34,074 nucleotides of DNA from Syntrophaceae bacterium (GTDB lineage Bacteria; Desulfobacterota; Syntrophia; Syntrophales; Smithellaceae), in assembly GCA_016927935.1 (NCBI GenBank), contig JAFGLS010000167.1, positions 1 through 34,074 of the forward strand, in the 5' to 3' direction. The translations under genes and the position numbers were made by a program. Positions 9,089 to 33,952 of the stretch are shown piece after piece. Position 1 is the first letter of the stretch. Each line of letters begins with the position of its first letter. The notes beneath the pieces are model-generated. The model did no database searches. It saw nothing but the letters and a program-made list of their open reading frames with translations, and was not told the origin of the DNA.

Positions 9089-9305
9089 TGAGACTCAAGT
9101 TTTAATGAGACCCAAGTTACAGAAACAAACAACCTAAATACCCTAAAGGGCACCATGGGGTCACTATAGGTGTACTGAAACTTGTAGGTCGAATTACCCC
9201 GCATAGCGGAGGTAATGACACTCGCTAAGAACGAGTCCCGACAAGTCGGGACGAAGTTCGAAGCGCAAGTGGAACAATCCCGCATAGCGGAGGGTACTAT
9301 AGTAC
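9089..9305 (+). repeat. Dispersed structured repeat, copy B with nested module
   Basis: TTTAATGAGACCC (from 9101) opens the same element as copies A and C. The stem is CAAGTTACAG/CTGAAACTTG, flanked by GACC/GGTC. Its loop is enlarged by about 40 bp: AACCTAAA, then a CCCTAAAGGG palindrome, then GGTCACTATAGG. After GGTCGAATTA the right half carries CCCGCATAGCGGAGG twice (9199 and 9280), a perfect hairpin GTCCCGAC-AA-GTCGGGAC, and ends in the 16-bp palindrome GGGTACTATAGTACCC, which contains the stop of the ligase gene. A partial extra left arm, GAGACTCAAG, precedes it at about 9090. Confidence 0.8.
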
Positions 9306-10685
9306 CCGTGACTTCTTTACGGTGAGGAAAATTTTTTCAATCCGGCTGCGATCAATTTTTCCGGCCGGTGTTCTGGCTATGGAGGAAACAATTTTAACAA
9401 GGCGTGGAACAGCATAGGGTTCCAATATATCCATCAACAGTTTTTTCAAATGGGTTTCCGTCAGACCACAGGCGACAACAGCCGCGACAACGCTTTCTCT
9501 ACCTTTATCTGAAGGCAGAGCCAAAACATAAGCATCGCTGACAGTGGGAAGTTTTTTTATTTTGTTCTGAATATCCAGCAAATCAACTCTTTTTCCGGCA
9601 ACCTTGACAATGCCGTCAGCTCTGCCCAGCAGGACAAAACGGTTTTCCTTCTCCCGGCGAACCTCATCGCCGGTAAGGCAAAACCCTTCCATGTCCCGCT
9701 CCATTTCCGGTGACGTGAAATCCGATTTTACTGATAACCTGCTACCCGTCAATTTCCATGATACGATGTCGAATGCTTTCCAGCTTTCTGTTTGTTCGCT
9801 GATATTGCGTGAAGCAATACCTCCGGTTTCCGTCGAGCCGTATATTTCCGTTATTCCCACTCCTGTTTTTTTATAGAAATGCAGACCATCGGAACGGTCC
9901 AACGCGCCGGCGGAGGAAAATGCTATTTTGAGCGAAGGGACTGACAAATTATCAACTTTCAAAGCACGATAATGAATGGGAATGCTTATTAATACAGAGG
10001 CTTTATGCTTGTTTATGGCGGAAATTATTTCCTGCGGAAAGGTGTAAATATCGGGCAATACCCTGGCGTGGGCGACAAAGGGAACTAAAACGGAAAAGAG
10101 CAAGCCGTAAATATGGTAGGGCGGCACGGTGGCAACAAAAAGGTCTTTCTCCGACAGGGCGAACGTTTCCTTCAGATAAAAAGCTTCCGCCAATAAGTTG
10201 CGCGGTGATTTTGACCAGACTTTCGGCTTGCCGGTTGAGCCGCCGGTAAAAAGACACAAAAAAGGTTTATCCGGATCGCGCATTATTTTAGGCTTGATAT
10301 TCCCCGGCTCATCGGGAAGCGGCGTGATTATTTCAACCCCAGGAGGCATTTCTTCGGGGTGATCCGCTATGGCCAGATTAAAGCCTGTAGCATCATACAT
10401 CTCCGACAGGGCATGGGACGAAAAGGAATAGGGCAAAATCAATCTGCAGAAGCCGGCAAGAGACGCCAGAACGCAGGCGGCTGTAACCGCCTTGTTCGTG
10501 GTGCAGAGGCAAAGAATTTTTTCCCCGCTGCGCTTGGCCAACGTTTTTTTCAGGCCGGCGGCCAGTTCCAAAACATTGCCGTAACTGTATCCGGAAAAGG
10601 TGAATTCTTTCCGGCAAACGTTTTTGGGCAGTACCAGAATTTTCTCATATAAATTGATAAAGGAATCTTTTTTTACGCCAGTCAT
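9297..10685 (-). CDS. Acyl/aryl-adenylating ligase (ANL superfamily)
   Basis: This roughly 460-aa protein belongs to the ANL family, which activates a carboxylic acid with ATP and loads it on CoA or an acyl carrier protein. The phosphate-binding loop is LFTGGSTGKPKVW near residues 148-160. The adenine motif is EIYGSTETGG near 283. The hinge and C-terminal domain show LLGRADGIVKVAGKRVDL near 352-369 and the catalytic Lys in TPAGKIDRSRI near 444. The protein is shorter than typical acyl-CoA synthetases (500-560 aa) and resembles the carrier-loading ligases of aryl-polyene-type clusters. It is divergent from the hotdog-FabG operon, so it probably supplies the starter unit. The start may be the ATG at 10685 or a GTG at 10691; neither has a clear ribosome site. 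The stop lies in repeat copy B. Confidence 0.85.
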   Translation of the reverse strand: MTGVKKDSFINLYEKILVLPKNVCRKEFTFSGYSYGNVLELAAGLKKTLAKRSGEKILCLCTTNKAVTAACVLASLAGFCRLILPYSFSSHALSEMYDATGFNLAIADHPEEMPPGVEIITPLPDEPGNIKPKIMRDPDKPFLCLFTGGSTGKPKVWSKSPRNLLAEAFYLKETFALSEKDLFVATVPPYHIYGLLFSVLVPFVAHARVLPDIYTFPQEIISAINKHKASVLISIPIHYRALKVDNLSVPSLKIAFSSAGALDRSDGLHFYKKTGVGITEIYGSTETGGIASRNISEQTESWKAFDIVSWKLTGSRLSVKSDFTSPEMERDMEGFCLTGDEVRREKENRFVLLGRADGIVKVAGKRVDLLDIQNKIKKLPTVSDAYVLALPSDKGRESVVAAVVACGLTETHLKKLLMDILEPYAVPRLVKIVSSIARTPAGKIDRSRIEKIFLTVKKSRVL

Positions 10686-10763
10686 ATTCACATATTTCAG
10701 AAAACAGTTTTCTTAATATCTACCGTAAAAAAGAAAAAAAATCACTTATTATAAAAATGATTC

Positions 10764-10802
10764 ACAATTCTTGTTGACTTCCACGTGGTTTTTTCATTAC
10801 TT
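10764..10802 (+). promoter_or_regulatory. Control region of biosynthetic block 1 with shared motif
   Basis: ACAATTCTTGTTGACTT (10764-10780) recurs with one change at 30009-30025, before the second biosynthetic block. It contains a -35-like TTGACT; a weak -10 TTACTT follows after 17 nt. The palindrome CCACGTGG sits in the spacer at 10781. On the opposite strand TATAAT at 10748-10753 could serve the ligase gene. Confidence 0.5.
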
Positions 10803-10829
10803 TAAATTAAACTATCAAAGAAATTGCTT

Positions 10830-11255
10830 ATGCTCAACATTGATATTGACAGTTTAATACCGCACAGAAAGAAAATAAAAATTATCAGCGGAGTTCTTGA
10901 TATACAGGAAAATTCCGCTGTCAGTACAGCGATTGTAAATCCTCAATGGCCTCTTTATGAAAAGGAAAAGGTTAATTCACTGGTTTTAATCGAAGCTATT
11001 GCTCAGACTGCCGCCGTTTATGAAGGGTATAAGAGAAAAAAGAAGGGTCTATCCGCGGTTAAAGGATGGCTTGTCGGCATCAAGAACGCCGAATTTTATA
11101 TTGAGAGAATACCTGTTAACACAAATCTAATCATCATGCTGGAAAGCAGGTATTCTTTTGATAAATACGGCGTAGTGGAGGGAACGGTTAAAACCGGTGA
11201 TAAAGTTCTGGCAACAGCGACCCTTCAGGCCATGCGGCTGAATGAAGACAGTTAA
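10830..11255 (+). CDS. Hotdog-fold 3-hydroxyacyl-ACP dehydratase (FabZ/ApeI-like)
   Basis: The protein is 141 aa from the ATG at 10830; a TTG two codons earlier is a less likely start. It has the single hotdog domain of FabZ-like dehydratases. LIPHRKKIKIISGVLDI near residues 9-25 carries the active-site His in PHR, and LIEAIAQTAAVYEGY near 51-65 is the central helix with the acidic partner Glu. It would remove water from 3-hydroxyacyl-ACP to give the trans-2-enoyl chain. Sequence is well diverged from housekeeping FabZ, consistent with a specialised pathway like aryl polyene synthesis. FabG-like reductase follows after 24 nt. Confidence 0.8.
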   Translation: MLNIDIDSLIPHRKKIKIISGVLDIQENSAVSTAIVNPQWPLYEKEKVNSLVLIEAIAQTAAVYEGYKRKKKGLSAVKGWLVGIKNAEFYIERIPVNTNLIIMLESRYSFDKYGVVEGTVKTGDKVLATATLQAMRLNEDS

Positions 11256-11279
11256 CAATAATAAGGAGTGAGGCAAAAT

Positions 11280-12008
11280 ATGAATGATGAAAGAACAGCG
11301 ATAGTCACAGGCGCGAGCCGGGGCATCGGTCGCGCCACGGCCGTGGAGCTGGCCAAAGCCGGGTATTTTGTAATCATCAACTTTAAAACCAATGAAAAAG
11401 CGGCGATGGAAACATTGAGCCTTGTTCAGTCTGCCGGCGGAGACGGAGAGATTTCTCAGTTTGATGTTGCCGATAACGCACAGACCAAGGAAGCTGTCAA
11501 GGCGATTATAGAACGTCATAAAAATATTCAGGTGCTCGTTAATAACGCCGGAATAACCGCTGACGGTCTTTTTATACTGCTGGGTGAAGAAGAGTGGGAC
11601 AGCGTTGTCAACACAAGTCTGAAAGGTTTTTATAACGTCACGAAGCCTGTTTTGAGGGAAATGGTCAGGCGTAAATGCGGCTCTGTTGTTTCGGTTTCTT
11701 CACTTTCGGCGCTGCTGCCCAATAGAGGGCAATCCAATTACTCGGCGGCGAAGGCAGGAATAATTGCCGCTTCCCGCTCGCTGGCCACGGAAGTGGCGCG
11801 CTTCGGCATCCGTGTCAATGTGGTTGCTCCGGGTTTGATTGAAACGGATATGATTAAGGATGCGCCGGTGGCTGAAATAAAAAAAATGATTCCCATGGCG
11901 CGTCTGGGCAAGCCGGAAGAAGTGGCCGGTGTTATTCGTTTTTTGTGTTCAGATGACGCTTCTTATATTACCGGACAGGTAATCGGCATCAATGGCGGAA
12001 TATGTTAA
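11280..12008 (+). CDS. 3-oxoacyl-ACP reductase, FabG-like
   Basis: The protein is 242 aa from the ATG at 11280, which is preceded by AAGGAG and GAGG; a GTG at 11268 is less likely. It is a classical short-chain dehydrogenase. TGASRGIGRAT near residue 12 binds NADPH, NNAGIT near 88 supports the active site, and the catalytic Ser lies in VSSLSAL with Tyr and Lys in SNYSAAKAG near 150. The C-terminal SSD..YITGQVIGINGGI is typical of FabG. It would reduce 3-ketoacyl-ACP in the pathway formed with the neighbouring dehydratase, carrier and ketosynthase. Its stop overlaps the next gene by 7 nt, so the two are co-transcribed. Confidence 0.9.
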   Translation: MNDERTAIVTGASRGIGRATAVELAKAGYFVIINFKTNEKAAMETLSLVQSAGGDGEISQFDVADNAQTKEAVKAIIERHKNIQVLVNNAGITADGLFILLGEEEWDSVVNTSLKGFYNVTKPVLREMVRRKCGSVVSVSSLSALLPNRGQSNYSAAKAGIIAASRSLATEVARFGIRVNVVAPGLIETDMIKDAPVAEIKKMIPMARLGKPEEVAGVIRFLCSDDASYITGQVIGINGGIC

Positions 12009-12643
12009 AAAAAAATTATCGCAATTTATATGTTTTTGTTTGCACACTAACAGGCATTTTTTATATTTTCAGCCCGCTGATTCATGCAGCGGAAAACAAT
12101 TTTGAAAAATTGCGCAGGGAATCGGCCAAAATAAAAACTCTGCAGGCTGATTTTGTCCAGAAGAAATTCATGAAGATTCTATCCCAGCCTCTTATCTCTG
12201 AAGGACGTCTGTATTATGCCGCCCCTGATTCTTTTCGCTGGGAGTACTTTAAGCCTTTAAAGAGCGTTGTCATTAACCATGAAAACAGCAGCAAGCGTTA
12301 CGTTTATTCGGAAGGGAAAATGGTGGAAGACAAAACAGGCGGCGTGCAGGCAATGAAGATAGTGCTGAACGATGTTGCTAATTGGCTGAGCGGCAGTTTT
12401 GATCAAAATCCCTCATTTAAGGCAATCATCAGGGAAGGAGCAAGTATAATAATAATTCTGACTCCTGCGGAAAATACTATGAGGGATATGATTGAAAAAA
12501 TCGAGATTACTCTTTCTAAAAAAACGGCTACTGTCCGGTCCGTGAAGATTATTGAAGACGCCAATTCCTCCACACAGATAAATTTCCGTAATATTCAAAT
12601 AAATAAAGCAATCAATTCTTCGGTATTTCAGGATGCGCAATGA
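12002..12643 (+). CDS. LolA-like outer-membrane lipoprotein/lipid carrier
   Basis: This 213-aa protein has a signal peptide (about residues 1-28, ending near PLIHAAEN). The LolA/LppX-like fold follows: LRRESAKIKTLQADFVQKK near 35-53, LISEGRLYYAAPDSFRWEY near 62-80, and YSEGKMVEDKT near 100-110. Chaperones of this fold carry hydrophobic chains across the periplasm. LolA paralogues encoded inside aryl-polyene clusters are thought to move the product to the outer membrane, and the context here is the same. It overlaps the FabG-like gene by 7 nt and the next gene by 4 nt (ATGA). It is unlikely to be the housekeeping LolA because of this tight coupling. Confidence 0.85.
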   Translation: MLKKNYRNLYVFVCTLTGIFYIFSPLIHAAENNFEKLRRESAKIKTLQADFVQKKFMKILSQPLISEGRLYYAAPDSFRWEYFKPLKSVVINHENSSKRYVYSEGKMVEDKTGGVQAMKIVLNDVANWLSGSFDQNPSFKAIIREGASIIIILTPAENTMRDMIEKIEITLSKKTATVRSVKIIEDANSSTQINFRNIQINKAINSSVFQDAQ

Positions 12644-13305
12644 AAGGCATATTTTTAATATTAACTTTTTTTCTATTCTCCTGCCAAACACTGCCGTTGA
12701 TTAATCCACCTGTTTCTTTGTCCGAGGAAAAGTCCCTCACTTGCCCCTCTCCTTTTTTGAAACAGAAATATCGTCTGATACATTCCATAGAAGCCCGTTT
12801 AAACGGCAATGCGCAAAGTGCGGTTATTGGCATAAATCTGGCAGACCCTTCCACGCGCGTTGTTTCCTGCGCCATTTTAACCGCAGAAGGAATGGTGCTT
12901 TTGGAAGCAGAGTCAGATTCCGGGAGAGTCGTAATCAAGAGAGCTCTGCCTCCTTTTGATTCAGAGAATTTCGCGAAAAACATGATTGAGGATATTAAAC
13001 TGATTTTTTTCCCGTCGGAAGGTCATCACTATCAGAAAGGGTATCTTCCCGATGGATCAAAGGTCTGCCGCTACCGCCAGGATGACGGCGGTTGGGTTGA
13101 CGTGATTGCCGATAAAATGGAAGGTACGGAAATAAAGCGTTATTCGTCATCAGGCTCTCTAAAAAGACGTATCCTTTACGACAAGGCGACAAAGAATATT
13201 TATCAGCGCATTGAACTACAGGCATATGAAACCTTTGATTATTTTCTGTTGATGAAGCTTATTGAGGCTCAACCGGTAAAAACAAAAGAAGTAAAAAGAA
13301 GATAA
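12640..13305 (+). CDS. DUF3261-like lipoprotein of the polyene-type cluster
   Basis: This 221-aa protein begins with a short lipoprotein signal: a hydrophobic run to FLFSC, where Cys15 would be lipidated. The mature part is beta-rich, with YRLIHSIEARLNG near 46-58, MVLLEAESDSGRVVIKRALPP near 89-110 and VCRYRQDDGGWVDVI near 142-156. Length and architecture match DUF3261 proteins found beside LolA-like genes in aryl-polyene clusters. It is probably an outer-membrane lipoprotein that receives the lipid product; this role is inferred from context. The start overlaps the LolA-like stop (ATGA). It is the last gene of block 1. Confidence 0.7.
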   Translation: MKGIFLILTFFLFSCQTLPLINPPVSLSEEKSLTCPSPFLKQKYRLIHSIEARLNGNAQSAVIGINLADPSTRVVSCAILTAEGMVLLEAESDSGRVVIKRALPPFDSENFAKNMIEDIKLIFFPSEGHHYQKGYLPDGSKVCRYRQDDGGWVDVIADKMEGTEIKRYSSSGSLKRRILYDKATKNIYQRIELQAYETFDYFLLMKLIEAQPVKTKEVKRR

Positions 13306-13328
13306 ACGTTACTCAGACTACGTTTTTA
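13304..13328 (+). terminator. Possible weak terminator after block 1
   Basis: AAACGT and ACGTTT form a 6-bp stem with a 10-nt loop, and a run of five T follows. It directly follows the DUF3261-like gene. The stem is short. Confidence 0.3.
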
Positions 13329-13420
13329 AAAGATGCGGTTAAACGAGTTAAAAAGATAATTAGAATCAGCTGTTGTCCAGCTTTCTTCTTTGGCACGAAT
13401 TTTTTTCGGCCAGATTTGCC

Positions 13421-13449
13421 TTGACACACCAAAAGATTTCTCATATACT
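13421..13449 (+). promoter_or_regulatory. Strong sigma-70-like promoter for the activase gene
   Basis: TTGACA, exactly 17 nt, TATACT. This is a near-consensus promoter with a start near 13456, about 67 nt before the ATG at 13523. The same hexamers and spacing occur before the foldase gene at 29959-29987. Confidence 0.7.
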
Positions 13450-13522
13450 TCCTCGTCTGCAAAAAGGAAGTTCTTGTCATTATGTTTTATTTAGAAATAG
13501 CCGGGTTTGTCTGGAATGAAAA

Positions 13523-16500
13523 ATGACGGATCGGCGGTCGCAACATAGTGGGAAAATTCCCCCAAAAAATCAAGAGAAAGATGTCGTGGTTGCCGGATGC
13601 GACCTGGGTAAAGCAACCGCCAAGTTCGTTCTAATCAGGATTAGCGGTGATGGAACACTGTTTTGGGAAGATTACCGCATAATTATTCATAACGGGCGCC
13701 CGCTTGATACGTTCAGAAAATGGTACCGCGAAAAAAATATTGCCTTATGCGCTGCTGTGGCTGCTACCGGTTTGCATTCCAACGAACTGATTGCGCCGGT
13801 CATTTCCGAACTGCCGGAAGATGCCTGTCTCGCTGCGGCTCTGAGGATGCGCAGCAATATTAATGGAGCGGTTAATCTTGTGAGTTTGGGTGCCCGTGGA
13901 TATTCCGTATTCACTCGAGACCGGCAGGGACATGTCCACTATATCGAAAACGATAAATGCTCCTCCGGAACGGGCGAGACAATAATCAAGATTGCGGGTC
14001 GTTTCGGATTAGGCATAGAAGAAGCTGACAGGCTGGCTGCGAGCGCATCCACCAGTATTCCTATTACCGCCCGTTGTTCAGTCTTTGCCAAGAGCGAGAT
14101 GACCCACTTCGGTAATCAGGGGAAACCGATCGACCAGCTCATGAGAGGTTATTTCGAATCGGTTGCCCGCAATGTGGCGGCACTTCTGTCGAAAGTACGC
14201 ATTGACGGCCCTGTCTATCTCATTGGTGGTGGCACAAAGATTGTCACTTTTACACAGGCTTTCCAGAAGTTGATTGGCAGCAACGTTCAAGTGGCTTCGG
14301 AGCCGCAGCTCTTCGAAGCGTTAGGCGCGGCTGTTTTGGCTGCCGAACAGCACAGTGGAGAAAAACTATTAAAGCTGCCTGATAATCCGGAACAGCTGAT
14401 TACTCCTCGCCAGATAAGATTCCGTATTCATAAACCGGCGGAACTGTCTGCATCAAAAGTCACCTATCAGAAATCTCCTTTAGTTAATGAAGATCCGTCA
14501 ACCACACCAACCGTTCTAGGTCTTGATCTCGGATCCACGGGCAGCAAGGCAGTACTGACTTCTATCAAGACCGGCAAACAGTTGCTGGACGTATATGACC
14601 GCACCCGTGGTAATCCGGTAGATGCATCATCGCGGCTGCTGGAGGCGATTTTGAAGCAAACAAAACCTGATATCCGGGCGATTGCCTTGACCGGTTCCGG
14701 ACGTGAAGCCGCCGCTACGGTTCTCCGTGCGGTATTCCCGTCACTTGCTCAACAGATTGTGGTCTTAAATGAAATCGTTGCCCACGCTGCTGCCGCTATC
14801 CGGTGTGATGATAAAAATGGCAGAAGCCTCTCTATTGTCGAGATCGGCGGGCAGGATGCCAAGTTCATCCAGATTGCCGGCGGCCAGATAATCGAAAGTG
14901 ACATGAACAAAGCCTGTAGTGCCGGAACGGGATCGTTTCTTGAAGAACAGGCCGTGTTCTATGGCGTGCATGATGTGCAGGAGTTTACTCAACTGGCCAG
15001 AAAAGCGACACGTCCTCCTGATCTCGGACAGATGTGCACGGTTTTTGTTGCCGATGCTGCGGCCGAAGCGCTCAACGAAGGGTTTGATATCGAAAATCTC
15101 TTTGGCGGATTCCAGTATTCGGTCATTCACAATTATATAAACCGGGTCATGGGAGGCCGAACGTTCGGCGAGCGGATATTCTTCCAGGGTAAACCGGCCA
15201 GCGGACCTTCGCTTGCTTGGACACTTGCTGCCGTTACCGGCCGGGAGGTGATCGTTCCACATAATCCAGGAGCCATGGGCGCCTGGGGGATAGGGCTTTG
15301 CGCGTTAAAAGAATTGGGCGAAGAAAAACTCCTTCAAGCCGCTAATTTCGATTTGAATCTGGCACTCGATGCCCGGGTCGTGTCTCGAAAAGAATTCCAG
15401 TGTGCCGATTCTAAATGCCAGAACATGTGCCGCATTGATAAAACGACTGTTTCTGTTGGCGGAGCGGAACATACGGTTTTGTCCGGAGGCGCTTGTCCCA
15501 AATATGAAATCTCATCTGGCGGTTCACAGAAACTCCCGAAGGATGCCCCCAACGCGATCGAAGAGAGGATGACGCTTCTGGAAAATTTCTGGGAAGCCGG
15601 CTCAGGTGATCGATTGGTGGGAGTTCCCTATGTGGGAGCCCTTTATGGATACCTGCCGTGGATAGTGACGTTTCTATCAAAAATCGGGCTTCGCGTGAAA
15701 GTTTTGCGTGCCGACAGCAAATCGCTGGCTCGTGGTGAAGAGCGCTGCTTTTCGTATGATTCCTGCGCACCCGCCAAAGTCGCCCACGCGGTGGCGGACG
15801 CGGACATCAGCACACTCGTGTTTCCGAAATTTCTGGACCTGTATGACCGGGAAGGAGATGGTGGCCGCACCTGTCCCATGGAACAGGGCATGGCTGATAT
15901 GGCCGACCACGCGCTGAAGGCACGCGGCCGGAATATAAGATTCGTCAAGCCGGTTTTTAACCTAAAAGACGACCTGCTAAATAAGCGACTGCTCAGGCGC
16001 CTTAAGTGGCTTGCCCGTGAGCTGTGCATGAATGACACTAAGGCAATAAAGGCGGCACGCCGCGCGGCGCAGGTTCAGCAGGAGTATGAGAGTGCGCTCG
16101 CGGAGATCGGGCGGCGAACCTTGAACTACGGGCGTGAACACCGGATTCCGATTGTTGCCGTTGTCGGCTCGCTGCACATGATCTACGACCGTGCGGTGAA
16201 CGCAAACATTCCGGCACTACTTCGCCAGAATGGCGTGCTTCCTCTCCCGATGGATTGTTACCCGCTTCCTAAAAACATCCATCCGCTGCCACGGATTGTC
16301 TGGGAGGACGCGAACCGGGCACTCCGCGTCGCTCTCTTGGCCAGGGAACAAGGGGATGTTTTTCCTGTCCTCCTGTCGTCGTTCGGCTGCGGGCCGGCTT
16401 CCTTTACGGAGCATTTCTTCCGGCACCTCATGGAGGGTTACCCGCACACAGCACTGGAGAGTGATGGACATGGCGGTTTTGCAGGCTTTGTGACGAGAAT

Positions 16501-17827
16501 CCAAGCGTTTTTGCATACAGTCCGCCAGCACAATGGCCGGCCGGTTCCTGTTGAACCGGAAAGACTCAAACTGTTCGAACCGCTCAAAGGCCCGTCGCTT
16601 AAGTCAGAAAAGGATTCCAAGTTCGTGGTCCTCTCAATAGGCGACCAGATAGCACCGATTATAGCGGCTACCTACCGGTCCTATGGCTATGATGCGGTTC
16701 CGTCGGTTATTACATCTGCAGCATCGCTGGCTGCCGGGCGAAGAGACTGTTCCGGCAAGGAGTGTATCGCCTACCAGCTCATCTGGGGATCGTTTCGAAA
16801 ATACCTTGATGACAACCCTCCTGAAAAGAGAACAGTGCTGCTTGAAATCACCGGCAGGGGTGCCTGTCGTAACTGCAACTTCTCCATCAAGGATCAAATT
16901 TCTGTCGGGAAGATGGGTCTTTCCGATCGTGTCGCACTGCGTCACCTTGCTCCAGAAAAGGAAGCTCCTGGCTTGTTGGCACGGTACTATACCGGTACGA
17001 TGCTATGGGACTTGTTAAACCAGTTTGCGGCGTTTTACAGACCATACGAACGTGAACCGGGCGAAGTCGACAGAATCTATCAGGAATACTGCGATGAACT
17101 GATCCGGATGATGGAAATCCCCAAAAAACAAGGAGGACTATCTGAAATCATCGAAAAGTTGCGGCGCCTCGAAGCCTTTGGTCAATTTATTCGTAAGGCT
17201 TCGGCACAGTTTGCAACTTTGCGGGAGGGCTGGCTGGATGAAAGATCCTTCCGGACGGTTTTTCTTACTGGTGACATCTATCTGCGTCTCGACGATTTCG
17301 GAAGTGACAGCATCATCCGAAGGCTCAATGCCCGTGGAATGCGTGTTATTGTGGAGCCTCTGTGGGTGCTGGTAGAATACCTCATCGAAGAACGCTCTTC
17401 AGAGCTGTTTAATCTTCCTCAGGGAACTTTTAAAAATCCATACCTTAAGTTCATGATGCAAAAAGCCCGGAAGCGGTTCTACAAAGTGGCCCGGGAAGAT
17501 AACCCCTGGCTGCCCACACCCGATGTCCCGGATATGCTGAAAAAGGCGAAGCCCATCATCAACCGTCATCCGCGTGGCGAAGCGCCTATTACTGTGGGAA
17601 GCGTCATTCACCACTGGGATGAAGCGCTCTGCGATGGTGTAGTGATTGTCGGACCATGGGGTTGCGGACCGGCAATGATTGCCGAAAGCCTGCTGAAGCA
17701 TCAGCGGCAAATTCCGCTGTTTTTTGTTTATAATGATGGGTCTCCCATTGATGAAAGGCGACTGAATGGATTCGTTTTCCGGCTGCGTCGCCATCAGCCG
17801 CGTGTTTTTCCACTCAGGAAAGCTTGA
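13523..17827 (+). CDS. Giant 2-hydroxyacyl-CoA dehydratase-type activase (two BadF/HgdC ATPase domains + DUF2229 + HgdB-like)
   Basis: This 1434-aa protein belongs to the large CoA-dehydratase activase family. Two ASKHA ATPase domains come first: one from about residue 25 (AGCDLGKATAKFVL; cysteine motif CSSGTG near 146; CSVFAKSE near 184), and a second from about 330 (GLDLGSTGSKAVL; IGGQDAKF near 441; CSAGTG near 465; CTVFVADAAAEAL near 504). Paired cysteines in such domains hold a [4Fe-4S] cluster at a dimer interface. A DUF2229 domain follows near 690-930 (GVPYVGALYGYLPW, CFSYDSCAPAKV), then an HgdB-like region to the C terminus (SGKECIAYQ near 1080, CRNCNFS near 1115). Relatives energise electrons with ATP for radical dehydration or reduction. 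No dehydratase partner is nearby, so the substrate is unknown. GC content is visibly higher than in the neighbours around 15.6-16.5 kb. Confidence 0.93.
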   Translation: MTDRRSQHSGKIPPKNQEKDVVVAGCDLGKATAKFVLIRISGDGTLFWEDYRIIIHNGRPLDTFRKWYREKNIALCAAVAATGLHSNELIAPVISELPEDACLAAALRMRSNINGAVNLVSLGARGYSVFTRDRQGHVHYIENDKCSSGTGETIIKIAGRFGLGIEEADRLAASASTSIPITARCSVFAKSEMTHFGNQGKPIDQLMRGYFESVARNVAALLSKVRIDGPVYLIGGGTKIVTFTQAFQKLIGSNVQVASEPQLFEALGAAVLAAEQHSGEKLLKLPDNPEQLITPRQIRFRIHKPAELSASKVTYQKSPLVNEDPSTTPTVLGLDLGSTGSKAVLTSIKTGKQLLDVYDRTRGNPVDASSRLLEAILKQTKPDIRAIALTGSGREAAATVLRAVFPSLAQQIVVLNEIVAHAAAAIRCDDKNGRSLSIVEIGGQDAKFIQIAGGQIIESDMNKACSAGTGSFLEEQAVFYGVHDVQEFTQLARKATRPPDLGQMCTVFVADAAAEALNEGFDIENLFGGFQYSVIHNYINRVMGGRTFGERIFFQGKPASGPSLAWTLAAVTGREVIVPHNPGAMGAWGIGLCALKELGEEKLLQAANFDLNLALDARVVSRKEFQCADSKCQNMCRIDKTTVSVGGAEHTVLSGGACPKYEISSGGSQKLPKDAPNAIEERMTLLENFWEAGSGDRLVGVPYVGALYGYLPWIVTFLSKIGLRVKVLRADSKSLARGEERCFSYDSCAPAKVAHAVADADISTLVFPKFLDLYDREGDGGRTCPMEQGMADMADHALKARGRNIRFVKPVFNLKDDLLNKRLLRRLKWLARELCMNDTKAIKAARRAAQVQQEYESALAEIGRRTLNYGREHRIPIVAVVGSLHMIYDRAVNANIPALLRQNGVLPLPMDCYPLPKNIHPLPRIVWEDANRALRVALLAREQGDVFPVLLSSFGCGPASFTEHFFRHLMEGYPHTALESDGHGGFAGFVTRIQAFLHTVRQHNGRPVPVEPERLKLFEPLKGPSLKSEKDSKFVVLSIGDQIAPIIAATYRSYGYDAVPSVITSAASLAAGRRDCSGKECIAYQLIWGSFRKYLDDNPPEKRTVLLEITGRGACRNCNFSIKDQISVGKMGLSDRVALRHLAPEKEAPGLLARYYTGTMLWDLLNQFAAFYRPYEREPGEVDRIYQEYCDELIRMMEIPKKQGGLSEIIEKLRRLEAFGQFIRKASAQFATLREGWLDERSFRTVFLTGDIYLRLDDFGSDSIIRRLNARGMRVIVEPLWVLVEYLIEERSSELFNLPQGTFKNPYLKFMMQKARKRFYKVAREDNPWLPTPDVPDMLKKAKPIINRHPRGEAPITVGSVIHHWDEALCDGVVIVGPWGCGPAMIAESLLKHQRQIPLFFVYNDGSPIDERRLNGFVFRLRRHQPRVFPLRKA

Positions 17828-17908
17828 TATTAATATCGGATACGGAGGGAAAAGACAGCCAAGTCGTAAAAATCTCATTTAATTTACAGATAAATTTTTA
17901 GGAATAAA

Positions 17909-17940
17909 AAGAGGGACTGTCTTTATGAACAGCCCCTCTT
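17909..17940 (-). terminator. Bidirectional terminator between activase and lipase
   Basis: AAGAGGGACTGT and ACAGCCCCTCTT form a 12-bp stem with one mismatch and an 8-nt loop. On the minus strand the stem is followed by a T-rich tail (CTCTTTTTATT), so it ends the lipase transcript. It may also stop the convergent activase transcript. Confidence 0.75.
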
Positions 17941-17998
17941 GATGTTAGAAGTAACGTACAAGTCAGTTCGGAAACAGAAAAGTACGTCGTTAAATTTT

Positions 17999-19015: not shown

Positions 19016-19178
19016 AAAATCCTCCTTTAAATTTTTCTCGTTTGGATGATGAAAATGTGCAATCCACACTAAACCATTAACCACCTGATTTATGTGGATC
19101 TAAGTGATGGGCTAGAACGTGCAGGCGAGGAGGAAAAACGTACCACAGTGAATTTGAATCCCATTTGTCCTGTTTTAG

Positions 19179-19194
19179 TGCATGAAGCGTGCCA
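19179..19194 (-). promoter_or_regulatory. Sigma-54 promoter for the lipase
   Basis: The minus strand reads TGGCACG, 4 nt, ATGCA, against the consensus TGGCACG-N4-TTGCW. All seven bases of the -24 element match and the -12 GC is in place with one mismatch beside it. The start would be near 19168, giving a leader of about 150 nt before the lipase ATG. Confidence 0.75.
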
Positions 19195-19408: not shown

Positions 19409-19417
19409 CTAATAAAT

Positions 19418-28717: not shown

Positions 28718-28877
28718 TATTTTATATCTCTGTAAAAATAACTATCCAGCCGAATAGTTAACATCAAGTGTTCCAATAAAAAATTCGTCAACTATATAAT
28801 AATTCTCCAACGCGTAAGCAATTTTTAACAACAAAATTAAAAATCCTGGGAGAAAGAAAGTAAACCGAAATATATTT

Positions 28878-29900
28878 TTATTTTTTAAGATATTTCTCCG
28901 AAGCTCTTTTGATTGCCAGACTTCTTCGAAAAGCTTCAGCCTCTTCTCCATACATCTGATTCTGCAGTTCCTGAACCCTATTTTCTTTTTCTTGTTGATT
29001 AAGGTCGGGATCGTTCATTATTTCGCCCTCTCTGGCGTTATAATCCGACTCTTTTTGTCTATTGTCAGCTATAATCTTTTCAACATTTTCCCACCTTTGT
29101 ATCTGATCCTTTGTAAATAATTCCTCTCTGAACGCTCGTATTTGCGCTTTTTTCCCTTCGTCATCCAGTTCCGAAAGATCTTTGTCATACATAGCCAGCT
29201 TATCCTTATATTTGGCGTAAGGTTCGGCAAATGCATCAACTTTATCTGCTTCATCTCCCCACATATCCTCGTTTAACTGTTGTATCAGTTTTTCTTTTTC
29301 AGCGCCGTACATATCCTTGTTGCTTAGAATAATTCCCCGTCTGAGAGGATATTCTTCCGCCTTTACACTGGCGCCAAAGAGGGCGTCCGCAACCTCCTTG
29401 CCGAAAATTTCTCTCCGGTAATCCTGAAGCATGTGCAGGAAACTTATCACTTCTTCTTTGCTCTTGGGCATTCCCCCCCATTCACTTATTCTTCTGCCTG
29501 CCGTCATCTGATACGAAAAAAACTTCTTGTATAAGTCAAGCAGCTTGTCTGCCATATCCGCAGGCATTGTTGAATGAAGATACCTGCTGACGTTTTCAAA
29601 AAGATCCTTCTCGTTATCGATATCTTTAAAAATCTCATCGAGAAACTTGAAAAATTTTACCGTATAAGGGTTGATTACGCCATCCTTGAAGTAATTTTTG
29701 ACATTTTCTTTTTCTTCTTTAAAATCAATAACCTTGTAGTATGTTTCAATATCCTTCAGCTTTATATCGGAGCTTCTATCAAAGACGAAACCTTCATCGA
29801 CATTAATCTTTTCGGGCGTCACCATTTTTTTAATTGCCAATCCTGTGATTATTACAAGAAGGATGATTCCCGCAATTACAATTATCTTTTTTTTGCTCAT
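28878..29900 (-). CDS. Lipase-specific foldase (Lif, lipase chaperone)
   Basis: This 340-aa protein resembles lipase chaperones of the LifO/LipB family. Residues 5-24 form a single N-terminal membrane anchor, and the rest is helical and highly charged, facing the periplasm. The stretch REIFGKEVADALFGASVKAE near 167-186 matches the conserved RxxxFGxEVAxAxFG region of Lif proteins, and the repeated helix pattern up to AFREELFTKDQIQRWENVEKI near 257-277 agrees with the extended helical fold. The classical N-terminal RxxFDY motif is degenerate (NPYTVKFFKFLDEIF). It would fold the secreted lipase encoded at 17999-19015. GGGAGG lies 10 nt upstream of the ATG, and a strong promoter precedes it. Normally lip and lif are adjacent; here about 10 kb separates them. 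Confidence 0.8.
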   Translation of the reverse strand: MSKKKIIVIAGIILLVIITGLAIKKMVTPEKINVDEGFVFDRSSDIKLKDIETYYKVIDFKEEKENVKNYFKDGVINPYTVKFFKFLDEIFKDIDNEKDLFENVSRYLHSTMPADMADKLLDLYKKFFSYQMTAGRRISEWGGMPKSKEEVISFLHMLQDYRREIFGKEVADALFGASVKAEEYPLRRGIILSNKDMYGAEKEKLIQQLNEDMWGDEADKVDAFAEPYAKYKDKLAMYDKDLSELDDEGKKAQIRAFREELFTKDQIQRWENVEKIIADNRQKESDYNAREGEIMNDPDLNQQEKENRVQELQNQMYGEEAEAFRRSLAIKRASEKYLKK

Positions 29901-29958
29901 GAAAAGATATCCTCCCTACGATATTTTTTGATAAACAATATATCTCAGAATGGCAGGA

Positions 29959-29987
29959 AGTATAAGAAGAAGTTCTTATTGTGTCAA
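29959..29987 (-). promoter_or_regulatory. Strong sigma-70-like promoter for the foldase operon
   Basis: On the minus strand TTGACA, 17 nt, TATACT. The start is near 29952, about 52 nt before the foldase ATG. The lipase instead uses a sigma-54 promoter, so foldase supply appears to be constitutive or differently controlled. Confidence 0.65.
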
Positions 29988-30008
29988 TGGAATTTTTCCC
30001 TTTAATTT

Positions 30009-30047
30009 ACAATTCTTATTGACTTACAGGACATGAATTAATACAAG
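30009..30047 (+). promoter_or_regulatory. Control region of biosynthetic block 2 with shared motif
   Basis: ACAATTCTTATTGACTT (30009-30025) matches 16 of 17 bases of the motif at 10764-10780 before block 1, and the match extends a few bases further left. TTGACT serves as -35, and TACAAG follows after 17 nt as a -10. Confidence 0.5.
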
Positions 30048-30073
30048 TAAAACAATTCAGGAAAATCAAAAGA

Positions 30074-31558
30074 ATGAAAAATTATACTGAAGGAAAAAAT
30101 ATTGTTGTCATCGGCTCCGGCATAGGCGGACTGAGTGCGGGGATTATTCTTGCGCTTTTTAATTTTAAGGTTACAGTTGTGGAAAAAAATCCTTTTCCCG
30201 GCGGGCTGATGCGTTCCTACTGCCGTTCGGGATTTGACTGTTCGGTCGGCGTGCATTATGTCGGTGCTCTCGGAAATAATGAGCCTCTCGGCAAAATGTT
30301 CCAGGTTCTGGGAATACCGGTTGATGATTTATTTTCTTCCATGGGGCAAGAAGGAATTATCGACCGCTACATTTTTGATGATTTAATTTTTGATTTACCG
30401 GATGCCGGTATTGACGCGCTGGAAGATAATCTGCGAAGCACTTTTTGCCGGGACGAGGCGGCTCTGAATATTATCATGAAAAATTTGCGCGATATTTCCC
30501 GGCGCATGATGGAGCCTTCTTTTTTGCTTAATCAGGGCGATCCCTTCCAAAATATTGACTACTACAGACCAGTGGGAGAATTATTGAACAGCCTTCAGGT
30601 ATCTCCGGGATTGAGGGCGGTATTATCCATGCCCTGTCAGCTTACAGGCGTGCCGCTTAACGATTGTCCTATCATTTTCCATCACATAGTTTTGGTAAGC
30701 TATTTGCTTTCCTCCTGGAAACCAAAGGAAAACGGCCGAAAAATGACGGAAGTTTTTGTGCGCCGTTTTGAAGAACTGGGAGGAATGCTCGTCCTTAGTA
30801 ACGGTGTCAAAAAAATATCGCTCATTGATGGAAAGGTGGGCGAAGTGATACTGGAATCGGGAGAAAAGCTTCCGTCTGATGTTGTGGTTGCCGCCATACA
30901 CCCGAAAATAATGCTACAATTACTGGATGAGAATGTTCTTCGTGATACTTACCGCAGGCGCATACGGGGATTGAAAGAAACCGAGGGAGTTATCGTGGTC
31001 AATGCAAGCGTAAATGCGGCGGCGCATCCTGAAATAGATCATAATATCTACCGGCTCTCCACAGACGAAAACGGCTTTATAGAAGATGGATTTTTTTACC
31101 AGTTGCGCAACGGAAATTCGCCAAGTTCTAATCTGCTTTCCATTATCACTAAATCACTTTACAGCGAGTGGAGTCCATGGGAAAATACTTCCACAGGCAA
31201 ACGCGGCAATGAATATGAAGAAAAGAAAATGAATATCGCGGACAGTTTGCTGAAAAAAACCAAGGGAATTTTTGGTAATCTGAAAGATGCAAGCATAATT
31301 GATGTTTTTACTCCTCTCACCGTCAGGGATTTTGTAAATGCTCCCGAAGGGGCCTGCTACGGGGCAATGCGCTCTTCACGTCAATTACTTAAAATTGCTT
31401 CTTTAAATAATCTTCCAGTGCCTGGTCTCTGCATCGCGGGGCAAAACGCCGTGGCGCCAGGAGTTATGGGATGCTTGCTTGGTTCCTTCAACGCGGCAAG
31501 ACAGATTGTTGGTGTGGAGAGATTTAATAAGGAAATTGAAAGAAGTTTAAGTCTCTGA
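30074..31558 (+). CDS. CrtI-like NAD(P)/FAD-dependent oxidoreductase (phytoene desaturase/RetSat type)
   Basis: This 494-aa protein has the FAD fold of the phytoene desaturase family (COG1233). The N-terminal dinucleotide motif is VVIGSGIGGLSAGIIL near residues 10-25, followed by VVEKNPFPGGLMRS near 35-48. The C-terminal FAD motif includes GLCIAGQNAVAPGVMGCLLGSFNAA near 455-480. Family members desaturate or saturate isoprenoid and polyene chains, and related proteins occur in anaerobic lipid clusters such as those likened to ladderane loci. It precedes an acyl carrier protein by about 80 nt, so it may act on a carrier-bound acyl chain. Direction of the reaction (adding or removing double bonds) cannot be decided here. 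AGGA lies about 12 nt before the ATG. Confidence 0.85.
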   Translation: MKNYTEGKNIVVIGSGIGGLSAGIILALFNFKVTVVEKNPFPGGLMRSYCRSGFDCSVGVHYVGALGNNEPLGKMFQVLGIPVDDLFSSMGQEGIIDRYIFDDLIFDLPDAGIDALEDNLRSTFCRDEAALNIIMKNLRDISRRMMEPSFLLNQGDPFQNIDYYRPVGELLNSLQVSPGLRAVLSMPCQLTGVPLNDCPIIFHHIVLVSYLLSSWKPKENGRKMTEVFVRRFEELGGMLVLSNGVKKISLIDGKVGEVILESGEKLPSDVVVAAIHPKIMLQLLDENVLRDTYRRRIRGLKETEGVIVVNASVNAAAHPEIDHNIYRLSTDENGFIEDGFFYQLRNGNSPSSNLLSIITKSLYSEWSPWENTSTGKRGNEYEEKKMNIADSLLKKTKGIFGNLKDASIIDVFTPLTVRDFVNAPEGACYGAMRSSRQLLKIASLNNLPVPGLCIAGQNAVAPGVMGCLLGSFNAARQIVGVERFNKEIERSLSL

Positions 31559-31637
31559 TCTCACATTATTACATTGAAAAGCAATGTAATATTTGCTAAA
31601 AGCGACAAAATCCATTCAGGAAGTTAAATCAGGAAAA

Positions 31638-31907
31638 ATGACTCGTCAGGAAATCGAACACGAAGTTAAAAATGTTTTTCAGCGGGAATTTGAAATCAAA
31701 AATCCCGATATGGATGCCGATTTGCGCAAAACTTATGAATTTGACAGCATAGACGCTATTGAACTTTTACTGGCGATAGAAAATTTCTTAGGCACGGAAA
31801 TAAGCCAGGAAGAAAAAAAACAGGCCATCAATATCCGCACGATAAATCAGATTTGCGACTATATTGAAAAAATCGCGAAAAATAGAAACCTGTTTTCACC
31901 AGCGTAA
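31638..31907 (+). CDS. Acyl carrier protein
   Basis: The protein is 89 aa from the ATG at 31638, which has AGGA immediately upstream; a TTG start at 31593 is less likely. It is a small acidic four-helix carrier. The phosphopantetheine site is the Ser in YEFDSIDAIELLLAIE near residues 35-50 (DSxD, with Ile where the housekeeping protein has Leu). The helix after it, LGTEISQEEK, is typical of ACPs. It carries the growing chain between ketosynthase, FabG-like reductase and dehydratase. It ends 7 nt before the ketosynthase start. Confidence 0.9.
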   Translation: MTRQEIEHEVKNVFQREFEIKNPDMDADLRKTYEFDSIDAIELLLAIENFLGTEISQEEKKQAINIRTINQICDYIEKIAKNRNLFSPA

Positions 31908-31914
31908 AATAATT

Positions 31915-33153
31915 ATGGAACGCAGAATTGTCATCACAGCTGCTTCAGCTATTACACCTATCGGTCACGGAAAAGACCGGATTGTCCAGAGCCTGCTCAA
32001 TGGAATTTCCGGGATAAAACCTTTGCGTGAAGAAGAATTTCTTAGTCGCTATATTCATTCCAAAGTTTATGGAACGGTGGATTATCCTGTTGAATATGAT
32101 TTCAAAAGAAATCACCGGAAAACTATGGGTCCTGTCGCCCATTATGCCTGCCAGGTAGCGAAGGAGGTTCTGGAACAGTCGGGATTGAGCGAAGATTTCA
32201 TCACATCCGGAAGACTGGGGGTGGCTTTCGGTTCTATCCACGGTTCTCCAACGGTACAACGGAATATTTACCGTATTTTCTTTGGAAAAGACGATAAATC
32301 TTCGGTGCAGGGAGTAGGAGCGGTTGATTACCTGAAATCAATGGTCCACACTACAGCTGTCAACATAACAAAAATGTTCGGCATTACCGGCCGCGTGATA
32401 TCTTCATGTACAGCCTGCACGACAAGCGCGCAGTCAATAGGTTACGGTTATGAATCTGTCAAATTCGGCATGCAGGACGCGATGCTCTGTGGAGGTGCTG
32501 ATGAATATGATACAACCACGGTGGCTGTTTTTGACAATCTGTTGGCCTGCTCCACAGCATTCAATTCCGAGCCGCACAGAACCCCCCGTCCTTTTGACAA
32601 ATTGCGCGACGGGCTGGTGGTAGGCGAAGGCGCCGGGGCGGTAATGCTGGAAGAATATGAATTTGCCAGAAAACGCGGCGCTAATATTCTAGGAGAAGTC
32701 ATCGGATTTGCCTGTAATAATAACGGCGGTGACATGATTCTGCCGAATTTAACAGGCATAACCAATACTCTCCAACTCGGCGTAGAAGCTGCTCAAATTA
32801 ATCCTCAAGAGATTGACCTGATCAGCGCGCACGCCACGGCCACAAAGATGGGCGATATAGTTGAAGCTCAGGCCATCAATACCGTATTCGGGAATAATCC
32901 TTACGTCATTGGTTTAAAAAGCTATACGGGCCACACAATGGCTGCCTGCGGCGCTATTGAAACAATTATGACCCTCTATATGATGCAGGATGGATTTATC
33001 GCACCGACATTGAATCTGGAAGAGATTGACGAACGTTGCACAATTATTAAACATGTGCAAAAAGTATTACAGAAGCCGGTTAAAACAGCAGCCATACAAA
33101 ATTTCGCCTTCGGCGGTGTTAATACAATCCTGATGATTAAAAAATTTCCCTGA
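31915..33153 (+). CDS. Beta-ketoacyl-ACP synthase II-like ketosynthase
   Basis: The protein is 412 aa from the ATG at 31915. It has the thiolase fold of KAS II (FabF-like) condensing enzymes. The nucleophile Cys lies in SCTACTTSAQSIG near residues 164-176, the first His in AHATATKMGD near 304-313, and the second His in LKSYTGHTMAACGA near 337-350, with the KS-type Lys. GGADEYDTTTV near 192-202 also fits. All three catalytic residues are present, so it should be active rather than a chain-length factor. Sequence is diverged from housekeeping FabF. It follows the carrier protein closely and is followed 7 nt later by the acyltransferase, all in one operon. Confidence 0.92.
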   Translation: MERRIVITAASAITPIGHGKDRIVQSLLNGISGIKPLREEEFLSRYIHSKVYGTVDYPVEYDFKRNHRKTMGPVAHYACQVAKEVLEQSGLSEDFITSGRLGVAFGSIHGSPTVQRNIYRIFFGKDDKSSVQGVGAVDYLKSMVHTTAVNITKMFGITGRVISSCTACTTSAQSIGYGYESVKFGMQDAMLCGGADEYDTTTVAVFDNLLACSTAFNSEPHRTPRPFDKLRDGLVVGEGAGAVMLEEYEFARKRGANILGEVIGFACNNNGGDMILPNLTGITNTLQLGVEAAQINPQEIDLISAHATATKMGDIVEAQAINTVFGNNPYVIGLKSYTGHTMAACGAIETIMTLYMMQDGFIAPTLNLEEIDERCTIIKHVQKVLQKPVKTAAIQNFAFGGVNTILMIKKFP

Positions 33154-33160
33154 GATTAAA

Positions 33161-33952
33161 ATGTTCCTTTCCGGTTTTCTGCATTTTATAATCGATTTGT
33201 CTGTAACTTTGATTTTGTGGTTTTATTTCATGTTCGGGTATCTTTTTATTTTATTATTTTCGTTTATACCCATTTATATTTTCGCGAAAAACCGTGCCGC
33301 AACCCTGCAATATTTAAATCACATACATTTGAAAGTTTTTTTCGCGTTGACGCGTCTGCTGATTCCCCGCGCAAAATTTGACATTCCCGACAATATACGG
33401 AAAATTAGTTCATCCGTTATTGTGTGCAATCATTTGTCCTATCTCGATCCCATTTTGCTTGTATCGCTCTTTCGGCGGCAAAAAACGATTGTAAAAAACA
33501 CTTTTTTTAAAGTGCCCATTTTCGGCTGGTTTTTAAAAAATTACGGTTATATTTCCTCCGGTTCCGAAAAGATGAATGGATCGGCAATGATCGGCAATTT
33601 GGAAGATATCAAGCAACATCTTTCAACGGGAGGCGTTTTGTTTGTTTTTCCCGAAGGGACCAGAAGCCGAGACGGCAATCTTGCTCCTTTTAATAAGGGC
33701 GTTTTTACCATCGCCCGTTACTGCAACGCACCGCTAAAGCTTGTTTTCATCAAGGGAACAAATAAATTGTTTCAGCCTGGTCATTTTCTGTTTAATACTC
33801 ATGACCATAGCGAAATTCAGTTGGAATTAATCGGTTCTTTAAATCCGGATTACAAAAGCAGTAATTTTTCCATTTCCACTGTCGCTGATGAGGCCAGAAA
33901 AATTTTTGAAGAAAAAATTGCCAATGTAAAAATGGAAGAAACAAAACATTAA
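33161..33952 (+). CDS. PlsC-type lysophospholipid/glycerolipid acyltransferase
   Basis: This 263-aa protein has one or two N-terminal membrane segments (about residues 5-45) and the PlsC acyltransferase core. The catalytic motif is CNHLSYLD (HxxxxD) near 87-94, and the substrate motif is FPEGTRSRDG near 160-170. PlsC enzymes move an acyl chain onto a glycerolipid or lyso-lipid at the inner membrane. In aryl-polyene and related clusters such a gene attaches the finished chain to the lipid anchor. It begins 7 nt after the ketosynthase stop. The 120 nt beyond its stop hold no recognisable gene in the window. Confidence 0.92.
   Translation: MFLSGFLHFIIDLSVTLILWFYFMFGYLFILLFSFIPIYIFAKNRAATLQYLNHIHLKVFFALTRLLIPRAKFDIPDNIRKISSSVIVCNHLSYLDPILLVSLFRRQKTIVKNTFFKVPIFGWFLKNYGYISSGSEKMNGSAMIGNLEDIKQHLSTGGVLFVFPEGTRSRDGNLAPFNKGVFTIARYCNAPLKLVFIKGTNKLFQPGHFLFNTHDHSEIQLELIGSLNPDYKSSNFSISTVADEARKIFEEKIANVKMEETKH

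Follow-up and report, generated by a model that had tools for sequence, protein, structure and literature searches.

Two groups of genes that resemble parts of an aryl polyene (APE) pathway stand 16.8 kb apart in JAFGLS010000167.1, a contig of 34,074 bases from a member of the Smithellaceae (Syntrophales). The question is whether they belong to a single pathway and, if so, how that pathway came to be divided and what it makes. The window, as the analysed stretch is called here, is the entire contig (C220 of the host genome, G000) and ends where the contig ends. The host genome is 3.38 Mb in 239 contigs, about 91% complete with a contamination estimate of 5.03%, and its genus includes Smithella sp. 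M82. Smithella are strict anaerobes, and aryl polyenes have been explained mainly as shields against reactive oxygen.

We consider it very probable that the two groups, designated block 1 (9.3-13.3 kb) and block 2 (30.07-33.95 kb), are halves of one interrupted APE-type pathway. The best explanation, held with the same high confidence, includes an interruption that arose in an ancestor within the window's genus, between the last gene of block 1, which encodes a DUF3261-like lipoprotein (D3261), and the first gene of block 2, which encodes a CrtI-like flavin oxidoreductase (CrtI). The evidence lies in the gene content of the blocks, their contiguity in relatives, their co-occurrence and a promoter-like element found before each half.

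The two blocks and their order in relatives

The homology reference was a set of 18 Ape proteins of E. coli CFT073, and the E-values given for Ape matches refer to that small set. The genes of both blocks were intact. Block 1 begins with an AMP-forming aryl/acyl-ACP ligase (9297-10691, minus strand; ACP, acyl carrier protein) that is divergent from the other block 1 genes, matched Pfam AMP-binding and resembled ApeH (29.5% identity over 332 residues, E 3e-27). It is followed on the plus strand by a hotdog dehydratase (DH, 10824-11255; NCBIfam fabZ, E 1.4e-7; ApeP, E 2e-10), an SDR/FabG-like, ApeQ/FlxB-like ketoreductase (KR, 11268-12008; Pfam; 45% identity to ApeQ), a LolA-like carrier (12002-12643; Pfam LolA; ApeL, E 2e-4) and D3261 (12640-13305; ApeN, E 0.007), which had a sub-threshold DUF3261 match and a lipobox recognized by eye. 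DH had no Pfam match, but FabZ-type NCBIfam models matched it; it was the only dehydratase, of the ApeP type and with no match to ApeI.

Block 2 lies on the plus strand. Its first gene encodes the CrtI/CrtD-like flavin oxidoreductase (amino-oxidase; 30074-31558), assigned by Pfam and NCBIfam, and the three that follow were assigned by Pfam and the Ape set: an ACP whose best match was ApeF (31593-31907), an ApeR-like initiating ketosynthase (KS, 31864-33153; Pfam ketoacyl synthase; 38.7% identity to ApeR, E 8e-97) and a PlsC-type, ApeD-like acyltransferase (33161-33952). The catalytic Cys-His-His of KS was present in an alignment inspected by eye. As listed, the ACP and KS frames overlap, and by eye Met 31915 for KS and position 31638 for ACP are the more likely starts. 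The window has one ACP; deletion of apeF in E. coli left the pigment partly in place, as PMC8253772 states.

Pfam and NCBIfam confirmed the genes that the sequence-only reading had named in the two intervals, the DUF3261 label being weak in the window. The claim that these genes constitute the APE set held in part. All block proteins except CrtI matched a fitting Ape protein, but CrtI had no match among the 18, is foreign to the E. coli set, and the set in the window is incomplete.

The order of the genes was compared in 17 genomes of the window's genus, 15 of them informative for the split (G006 and G012 were incomplete and uninformative), and in six informative genomes of the family's other genera (G017, G019-G023); in G018 the contig begins inside CrtI. 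D3261 and CrtI were adjacent in all six of the latter, as well as in G263 and in loci L039-L043, of which L039, L041 and L043 repeat G022, G023 and G017, respectively. Five of the 15 congeners were contiguous (G001, G002, G004, G007, G008) and ten were split, with D3261 and CrtI on the same contig in G000, G003, G005, G010, G011, G013 and G015 and on different contigs in G009, G014 and G016. Locus L038 (M82) and genome G004 had practically identical cluster proteins, with tree branches near 0. The overlap between D3261 and CrtI, exactly at the split point, is ATGA, four bases long, in L040, L041, L042, M82, G007 and G008; in L043 it is a single base. The departures in the other genera were a ligase on another contig (G022) and frames between CrtI and ACP (G018, G019).

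Since D3261 and CrtI are adjacent in the other genera and in some congeners, one pathway was interrupted, as the sequence-only reading had proposed. The refuting tests named in that reading were run, and in the relatives read block 2 was not part of a separate complete cluster. Two unrelated neighbouring pathways might be suspected from the 16.8 kb between the blocks in the window and from their location on different contigs in G016, but the blocks are adjacent, often overlapping, in the sister genera, they co-occur, and they share a promoter-like element that has no other perfect match in the genome. Contiguity refutes this alternative unless the relatives' operons are chance unions, and we regard it as highly improbable.

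Co-occurrence was counted in 40 genomes, the host included, with KS orthologues taken at E < 1e-200 and each search given its own E cut-off. A KS orthologue was found in 26. All 26 had the ligase (fragments in G013 and G018) as well as the aromatic ammonia-lyase and the MMPL fusion described below, while DUF3261 was found in 25 (missing in G018, a cut contig) and CrtI in 25 (missing in G026). CrtI was counted at E 1e-100, and a weaker match in G025 (3e-27) was not counted. Among the 14 KS-negative genomes the ammonia-lyase occurred in two, and the ligase, MMPL fusion, DUF3261 and CrtI in one each; G006 (71% complete) and G012 (79% complete) accounted for four of these six stray genes, and G036 and G030 for the others.

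The insert and the history of the split

The insert that splits the operon spans 13306-30073 (16,768 bases) and is absent at the D3261/CrtI junction of the contiguous relatives. Its products are a BcrAD/DUF2229 2-hydroxyacyl-CoA dehydratase activator-like protein (BcrAD, 13523-17827, plus strand; Pfam), a lipase-like alpha/beta-hydrolase (17999-19084, minus; Pfam Abhydrolase_1, 25.5 bits with a cut-off of 25.8), a PAS-sigma54 activator (19418-22168, minus; Pfam), an HTH protein (22313-22597, plus; Pfam), a small protein, membrane-like by eye, with no Pfam match (22832-23296, minus), a Ser/Thr kinase-AAA-GAF-PAS-HD protein of 1793 residues (STK-HD, 23336-28717, minus; Pfam) and a LifO-like lipase foldase (28878-29900, minus; Pfam Lipase_chap, E 8e-23). 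The hydrolase is a putative lipase because a foldase lies in the same insert; the two genes stand 9.8 kb apart. The ends of the insert carry a 38-base inverted repeat, 74% alike, made up of two inward-facing promoter-like sites, TTGACA-17-TATACT, one before BcrAD (13416-13453, plus) and the other before LifO (29955-29992, minus), an arrangement that suggests joint control of the inserted genes. No transposase or integrase was found among the seven insert proteins scanned, frames of less than about 90 residues being outside the scan. A mobile element as the carrier was rejected on this ground, and the end repeat is better read as two inward promoters.

Counterparts of the inserted genes recur in congeners. 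BcrAD orthologues (76-79%) were found in only G005 and G013 of the 25 genomes searched (G016-G023 were outside the search), both at the same site. STK-HD counterparts (69-71%) in the inserts of G003, G005, G011, G013 and G015 adjoin CrtI or nearly so, with one large gene between in G003. At the D3261/CrtI junction, G010 and G016 have counterparts of lipase and LifO, and G005 has a remnant of LifO. Foldase-like genes were present in seven of the 25 genomes searched, the host counted. Among ten congener insert proteins scanned, a secretory lipase recurs at this junction in G003, G005 and G011; two, together with a 470-residue frame of G010, had no match. A second insertion spot lies between the divergent ligase and DH, with inserts of their own in G004 (as in M82), G006, G007, G008 and G014; that of G007 encodes PilZ, B12-radical-SAM and enolase-like proteins. 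These inserts cut no operon. STK-HD orthologues or paralogues occupy both spots in many congeners.

A chimeric metagenome assembly could also have produced the split, and an assembly in 239 contigs with 5.03% estimated contamination offers some room for it. However, the order D3261-BcrAD(+)...STK-HD(-)-CrtI was found in the separate genomes G005 and G013, with the same insert genes in the same place. A chimeric contig was rejected on this evidence and is the least probable of the alternatives weighed here.

Several split genomes share insert genes, junction and orientation, so the split state is old within the genus. The tree used to follow it was built from four cluster proteins; it joins two long branches (G020, G033), G001 fills 49% of its columns, and a cluster-gene tree of this kind cannot tell species history from cluster replacement. 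On this tree the split or contiguous state requires three changes, and the split genomes as one clade were rejected (p-AU 0.0069), the tested clade having been defined by the split state, though an earlier tree had been seen. Insert loss or locus replacement is therefore likely in G002 and in the group of G007, the other possibility being repeated insertions.

Repeated independent insertions in place of one ancestral split would change the history and are compatible with a single interrupted pathway. They would account for the rejected clade, the three changes and the differing insert contents. They fit less well with counterparts of BcrAD, STK-HD and lipase/LifO at the same junction and in the same orientation, with the LifO remnant in G005, or with the spacer of G002, which resembles the window's CrtI promoter region, although its likeness to G005 and G011 is about that of chance or little better. 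We regard repeated insertion as a doubtful but serious competitor of one ancestral split.

G002 is contiguous, and the tree places it as sister to the window at moderate support (87/63). The best local match of its 82-base spacer was the window's CrtI promoter region, with the -35 decayed, at a score of 52 compared with a shuffled mean of 19.2 and none of 300 shuffles as high. Against a lost insert, the contiguous genomes without a spacer scored 32-36, above the shuffles, because the last 40 bases 5' of CrtI are alike in many genomes, and the G002 spacer scored 20 against G005 (126 of 300 shuffles as high) and 24 against G011 (17 of 300). By this sequence comparison, G002 is possibly a locus that was re-joined after loss of the insert.

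The surroundings of the cluster differ as well. SecG, EndoIII and a third gene (177-4586) lie to the left of the cluster in the window and to the right of PlsC in L039 and L040, so the neighbourhood of the cluster was also rearranged; in L043 two of the three are likewise to the right of PlsC. An IS110-type transposase gene (L042:10672-11817) is located directly 3' of CrtI at a contig end, and G009 has a short D3261-like piece beside its MMPL gene (C124).

The promoter-like element before each half

A promoter-like element, ATTCTTGTTGACTT (10767-10780, plus strand), lies 57 bases before the listed start of DH. Another, ATTCTTATTGACTT (30012-30047, plus), with TACAAG 17 bases after TTGACT, lies 62 bases before CrtI. 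The 14-base pattern ATTCTTRTTGACTT had two perfect matches in the assembled genome, one before each half-operon, and four more matches with one mismatch, while the reversed control pattern had four in all. Both sites had been seen when the pattern was chosen, so it is the count over the whole genome that makes a fair argument. The CrtI element was not among the sites listed by a sigma-70 consensus scan of 29700-30300.

At least 12 of the 14 element bases were found in the 150 bases upstream of DH in 17 of the 21 loci examined. A wider scan of both strands of 56 loci, most of them from the family, covered 1.98 million bases in all, with at least two places present twice, and located 21 places with at least 13 of 14 bases; 15 were before DH, two of these about 150 bases upstream by position, five were before CrtI, and the single orphan was a copy of the CrtI promoter in G010. 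TTGAC-17-TACA preceded CrtI in ten of ten split genomes (nine by script, G016 by eye) and in none of eight contiguous loci, one of which, G002, retains a decayed version.

The simplest reading of these sequences is that the split made a promoter necessary and that the second half got one under the same control as the first, presumably its own promoter with the first half's rare upstream/-35 element. Because that promoter bears the same element, the second half probably stays co-regulated with the first. The proposal in the sequence-only reading that two sub-operons serve one product is plausible, given the same promoter-like element before each. Insertions that duplicate their flanks may be one way of copying a promoter. 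In G010 the insert holds a copy of the CrtI promoter 2,012 bases upstream (L081:10686-10744), around the 470-residue frame, and in G013 the end of D3261 recurs beyond BcrAD as a remnant of 46 residues (L090:16103-16240).

The third block, the predicted product and the phylum

According to PMC8253772, ApeR initiates, and ApeO with ApeC elongates and sets chain length, so of the two kinds of ketosynthase the window has the initiating one and lacks the elongating one. A further part of the pathway, missing from the window's incomplete APE set, is on contig C20, and in the host genome the pathway genes form three blocks, not one cluster. Block 3 includes a LipA-type (lipid-A-type) acyltransferase (C20:37551-38507), an MMPL exporter with a methyltransferase part (C20:42776-45841), GT2, FakA/DegV-like, 4HBT thioesterase, aromatic ammonia-lyase and B12-radical-SAM genes (C20:48734-54415) and a KS pair, KSa/KSb (C20:58592-61070). 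The MMPL-methyltransferase fusion was seen by Pfam in G026, and the alignment of the C20 copy covers residues 8-1024 of 1029. By eye, KSa retains Cys-His-His and KSb lacks all three, as in a chain-length factor (CLF). A further KS-like gene (C20:32001-33158), which matches ApeO better than ApeR, is a second candidate for elongation; a ketosynthase on C131 was set aside, by judgement, as housekeeping FabF-like. A conserved motif of block 3's own, approximately TTTTTATTGGCG-N-AATATTGTAAAC, was seen by eye upstream of B12-radical-SAM in six genomes (C20 and L110, L111, L112, L113, L114).

Genes of the C20 and window types share a contig in G018, G020, G021, G026 and G033. G018 has the single run ACP-KS-PlsC-KSa-KSb-LIG2-ACAD-B12rSAM-HAL-DegV, preceded by CrtI across a 690-residue frame and followed by GT2 after a 147-residue frame; the thioesterase was not met in this run. 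A stretch of about 32 kb contains every part in G021, where other frames take up about 9 kb between KSa and PlsC; in G026 a stretch of about 37 kb contains every part but CrtI. Within the window's genus the ammonia-lyase contig differs from the KS/ligase/D3261 contig wherever all are present, except in G016. There block 1 is followed, on one contig, by an insert that ends with STK-HD and LifO and then by block 3; block 2 is on a different contig. The two loci of G007 occupy contigs of 940 kb and 293 kb, and arithmetic from their positions puts at least about 255 kb between them.

In the mechanism proposed here, the ammonia-lyase would supply an aryl-propenoate or similar starter, the ligase would load it onto ACP, the ApeR-like KS would start the chain and the KS/CLF pair of C20 would elongate it. 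With no enoyl reductase acting, the chain would remain a conjugated polyene after KR and DH. Tailoring of this polyene without oxygen would fall to the CrtI-like and B12-radical-SAM enzymes; guessing from their families, the former might isomerise, desaturate or reduce it and the latter might C-methylate it. The acyltransferases and the glycosyltransferase would attach the polyene to a lipid, and the MMPL, LolA and DUF3261 proteins would carry the product to the outer membrane.

Three known systems can be compared. With apeA-R of E. coli CFT073 the window shares ligase, DH, KR, LolA, DUF3261, ACP, initiating KS and PlsC, and C20 shares GT2, thioesterase, MMPL, KS and CLF. In contrast to E. coli, the host set is split into three blocks, adds ammonia-lyase, CrtI-like, B12-radical-SAM and FakA-like genes, has separate GT2 and acyltransferase genes that both match the single ApeJ, and has the methyltransferase fused to MMPL, as seen in the relative G026. 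Flexirubin clusters of the Bacteroidota include an ammonia-lyase, and the likeness to them extends to KR and LolA, whose best NCBIfam models were FlxB and LolA2_flexi; they belong to another phylum, and the radical-SAM and CrtI-like genes are extra in the host. The FASII clusters of the anaerobes Kuenenia and Desulfotalea, which PMC2649909 discusses in connection with ladderanes, are similar in their phytoene-dehydrogenase-like, radical-SAM, ligase and membrane-protein genes and several KS, whereas the Smithellaceae set has the LolA-DUF3261-MMPL trio and the ammonia-lyase. No paper linking aryl polyenes to Smithella or Syntrophales, or joining flexirubin clusters, ammonia lyase and LolA, was found among open-licence papers, a weak guide to what is in print.

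Given one APE-type pathway, an aryl polyene is, from the predicted functions, the probable product. The rival is that APE-derived machinery makes a polyunsaturated fatty acid, a hydrocarbon or a ladderane-like lipid by way of the CrtI-like and radical-SAM enzymes, a route that has been proposed for the clusters of Kuenenia and Desulfotalea. It draws on a CrtI-like gene in 15 of 27 KS-positive genomes of the phylum, on the radical-SAM genes that accompany the cluster, and on Desulfotalea, in which Rattray et al. (PMC2649909) described FASII clusters with phytoene-dehydrogenase-like, radical-SAM, phenylacetyl-CoA-ligase-like and membrane-protein genes and detected polyunsaturated hydrocarbons. 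Some weight also comes from a separate Ole-type set at C20:64.7-75 kb, which includes a KS and a CrtI-like gene of its own. On the other side, the aromatic ammonia-lyase accompanies every KS-positive genome of the 40 relatives, on the same contig in several, and the transport trio with the ApeH-, ApeR- and ApeQ-type enzymes fits APE. We consider the rival product unlikely.

The Ole-type olefin set (C20:64719-74930; L003, L048) consists of KASIII/OleA, an alpha/beta hydrolase, an AMP ligase and a short epimerase-like frame, to which its own KS, a CrtI-like gene, a second flavin oxidoreductase, KR, a FabA-type dehydratase and an enoyl reductase are added, and it resembles a pathway to polyunsaturated hydrocarbons. 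In G005 and G016 too, the KS and CrtI-like genes of this set adjoin block 3.

Several observations weigh against the reading of one interrupted APE pathway with co-regulated halves, 1) the best NCBIfam models of KR and LolA are flexirubin models, which fell just under their cut-offs (FlxB, 309 bits, cut-off 340; LolA2_flexi, 124.2 bits, cut-off 125), 2) D3261 is a weak assignment in the window (16.9 bits, cut-off 22.3), whereas its positional counterpart in G387, a distant phylum member, scored 23.7 bits, above the DUF3261 cut-off, and a profile comparison of D3261 with ApeN alone failed (probability 1%), 3) the window has no elongating KS/CLF, thioesterase or exporter, 4) the selectivity pair of the ammonia-lyase, Phe-His by eye, is not known to fit any described pair and does not indicate the substrate, 5) the E. 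coli pathway as described has no role for CrtI-like, B12-radical-SAM or FakA-like proteins, 6) ammonia-lyase was found in one of eleven distant loci (G077), which also favours the rival product, 7) split and contiguous genomes interleave on the tree, so that a single clean insertion is not demonstrated, 8) the element before CrtI in split genomes retains 9-14 of its 14 bases, lowest in G015 (9) and in G005 and G009 (11), and 9) probable co-regulation is read from sequence, and block 3 lacks the element (a scan of C20 gave one 12/14 match, within OleC), which confines the claim of co-regulation to the two blocks of the window.

The anaerobic setting, which the sequence-only reading had called notable, is not exceptional. 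Among 395 genomes of the phylum, counted at E < 1e-110 for KS and E < 1e-60 for CrtI (a first look took three to four candidates per genome), a KS orthologue was found in 27 and a CrtI-like gene in 17, with both in 15 and 12 KS-positive genomes without CrtI at the cut-off. Eleven distant loci, picked partly for their CrtI match, were read. KS, KR, LolA and D3261 were on one stretch in seven (G085, G387, G405, G125, G077, G370, G263), and a B12-radical-SAM gene of 65-71% identity adjoined D3261 in six (G387, G405, G125, G077, G370, G313) and was about 7 kb from KS in G120. FakA/DegV-like genes were present in seven of the loci, CrtI in seven and a window-type ligase in six; G053 and G168 had ACP-KS-PlsC alone in the part read, with a radical-SAM gene in addition in G053. 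A KS fused to a Ketoacyl-synt_2 domain (713 residues) lies near the cluster of G387 (L131:1789-3930) and is perhaps a fused elongating KS and CLF.

CrtI-like, B12-radical-SAM and FakA-like genes accompany many of the phylum's clusters, and because they recur in the phylum and are absent from the E. coli set, the cluster is an anaerobe variant. The ammonia-lyase may be a Syntrophales feature. A wider reading joins four parts and is, taken together, tentative and open to considerable doubt: that the phylum's anaerobes have a distinct, oxygen-independent aryl polyene branch with B12-radical-SAM and often CrtI-like tailoring, that the Syntrophales use the ammonia-lyase for its starter, that many 'ladderane' clusters of non-anammox anaerobes are members of this branch, and that the half cut off by the split survived by acquiring the promoter element of the first half, as a copy or a mimic, turning one operon into a regulon of two half-operons. 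Ladderane calls of unknown function in non-anammox phyla of an anoxic basin appear in PMC9902471.

To the earlier observation of a split gene set are added a third block, a shared element, relatives that are contiguous or possibly re-joined, and recurring partners of anaerobe type. The CrtI-like and B12-radical-SAM partners are candidate enzymes, open to test, for the tailoring of polyenes in anaerobes, and they may aid in sorting the unexplained 'ladderane' calls there. As a natural experiment, the split bears on how one operon turns into two and on whether co-regulation outlasts the change; a single genus includes contiguous, split and possibly re-joined forms. A set conserved in obligate syntrophs calls for another role of the product than a shield against oxygen, or for a role during brief exposure to it.

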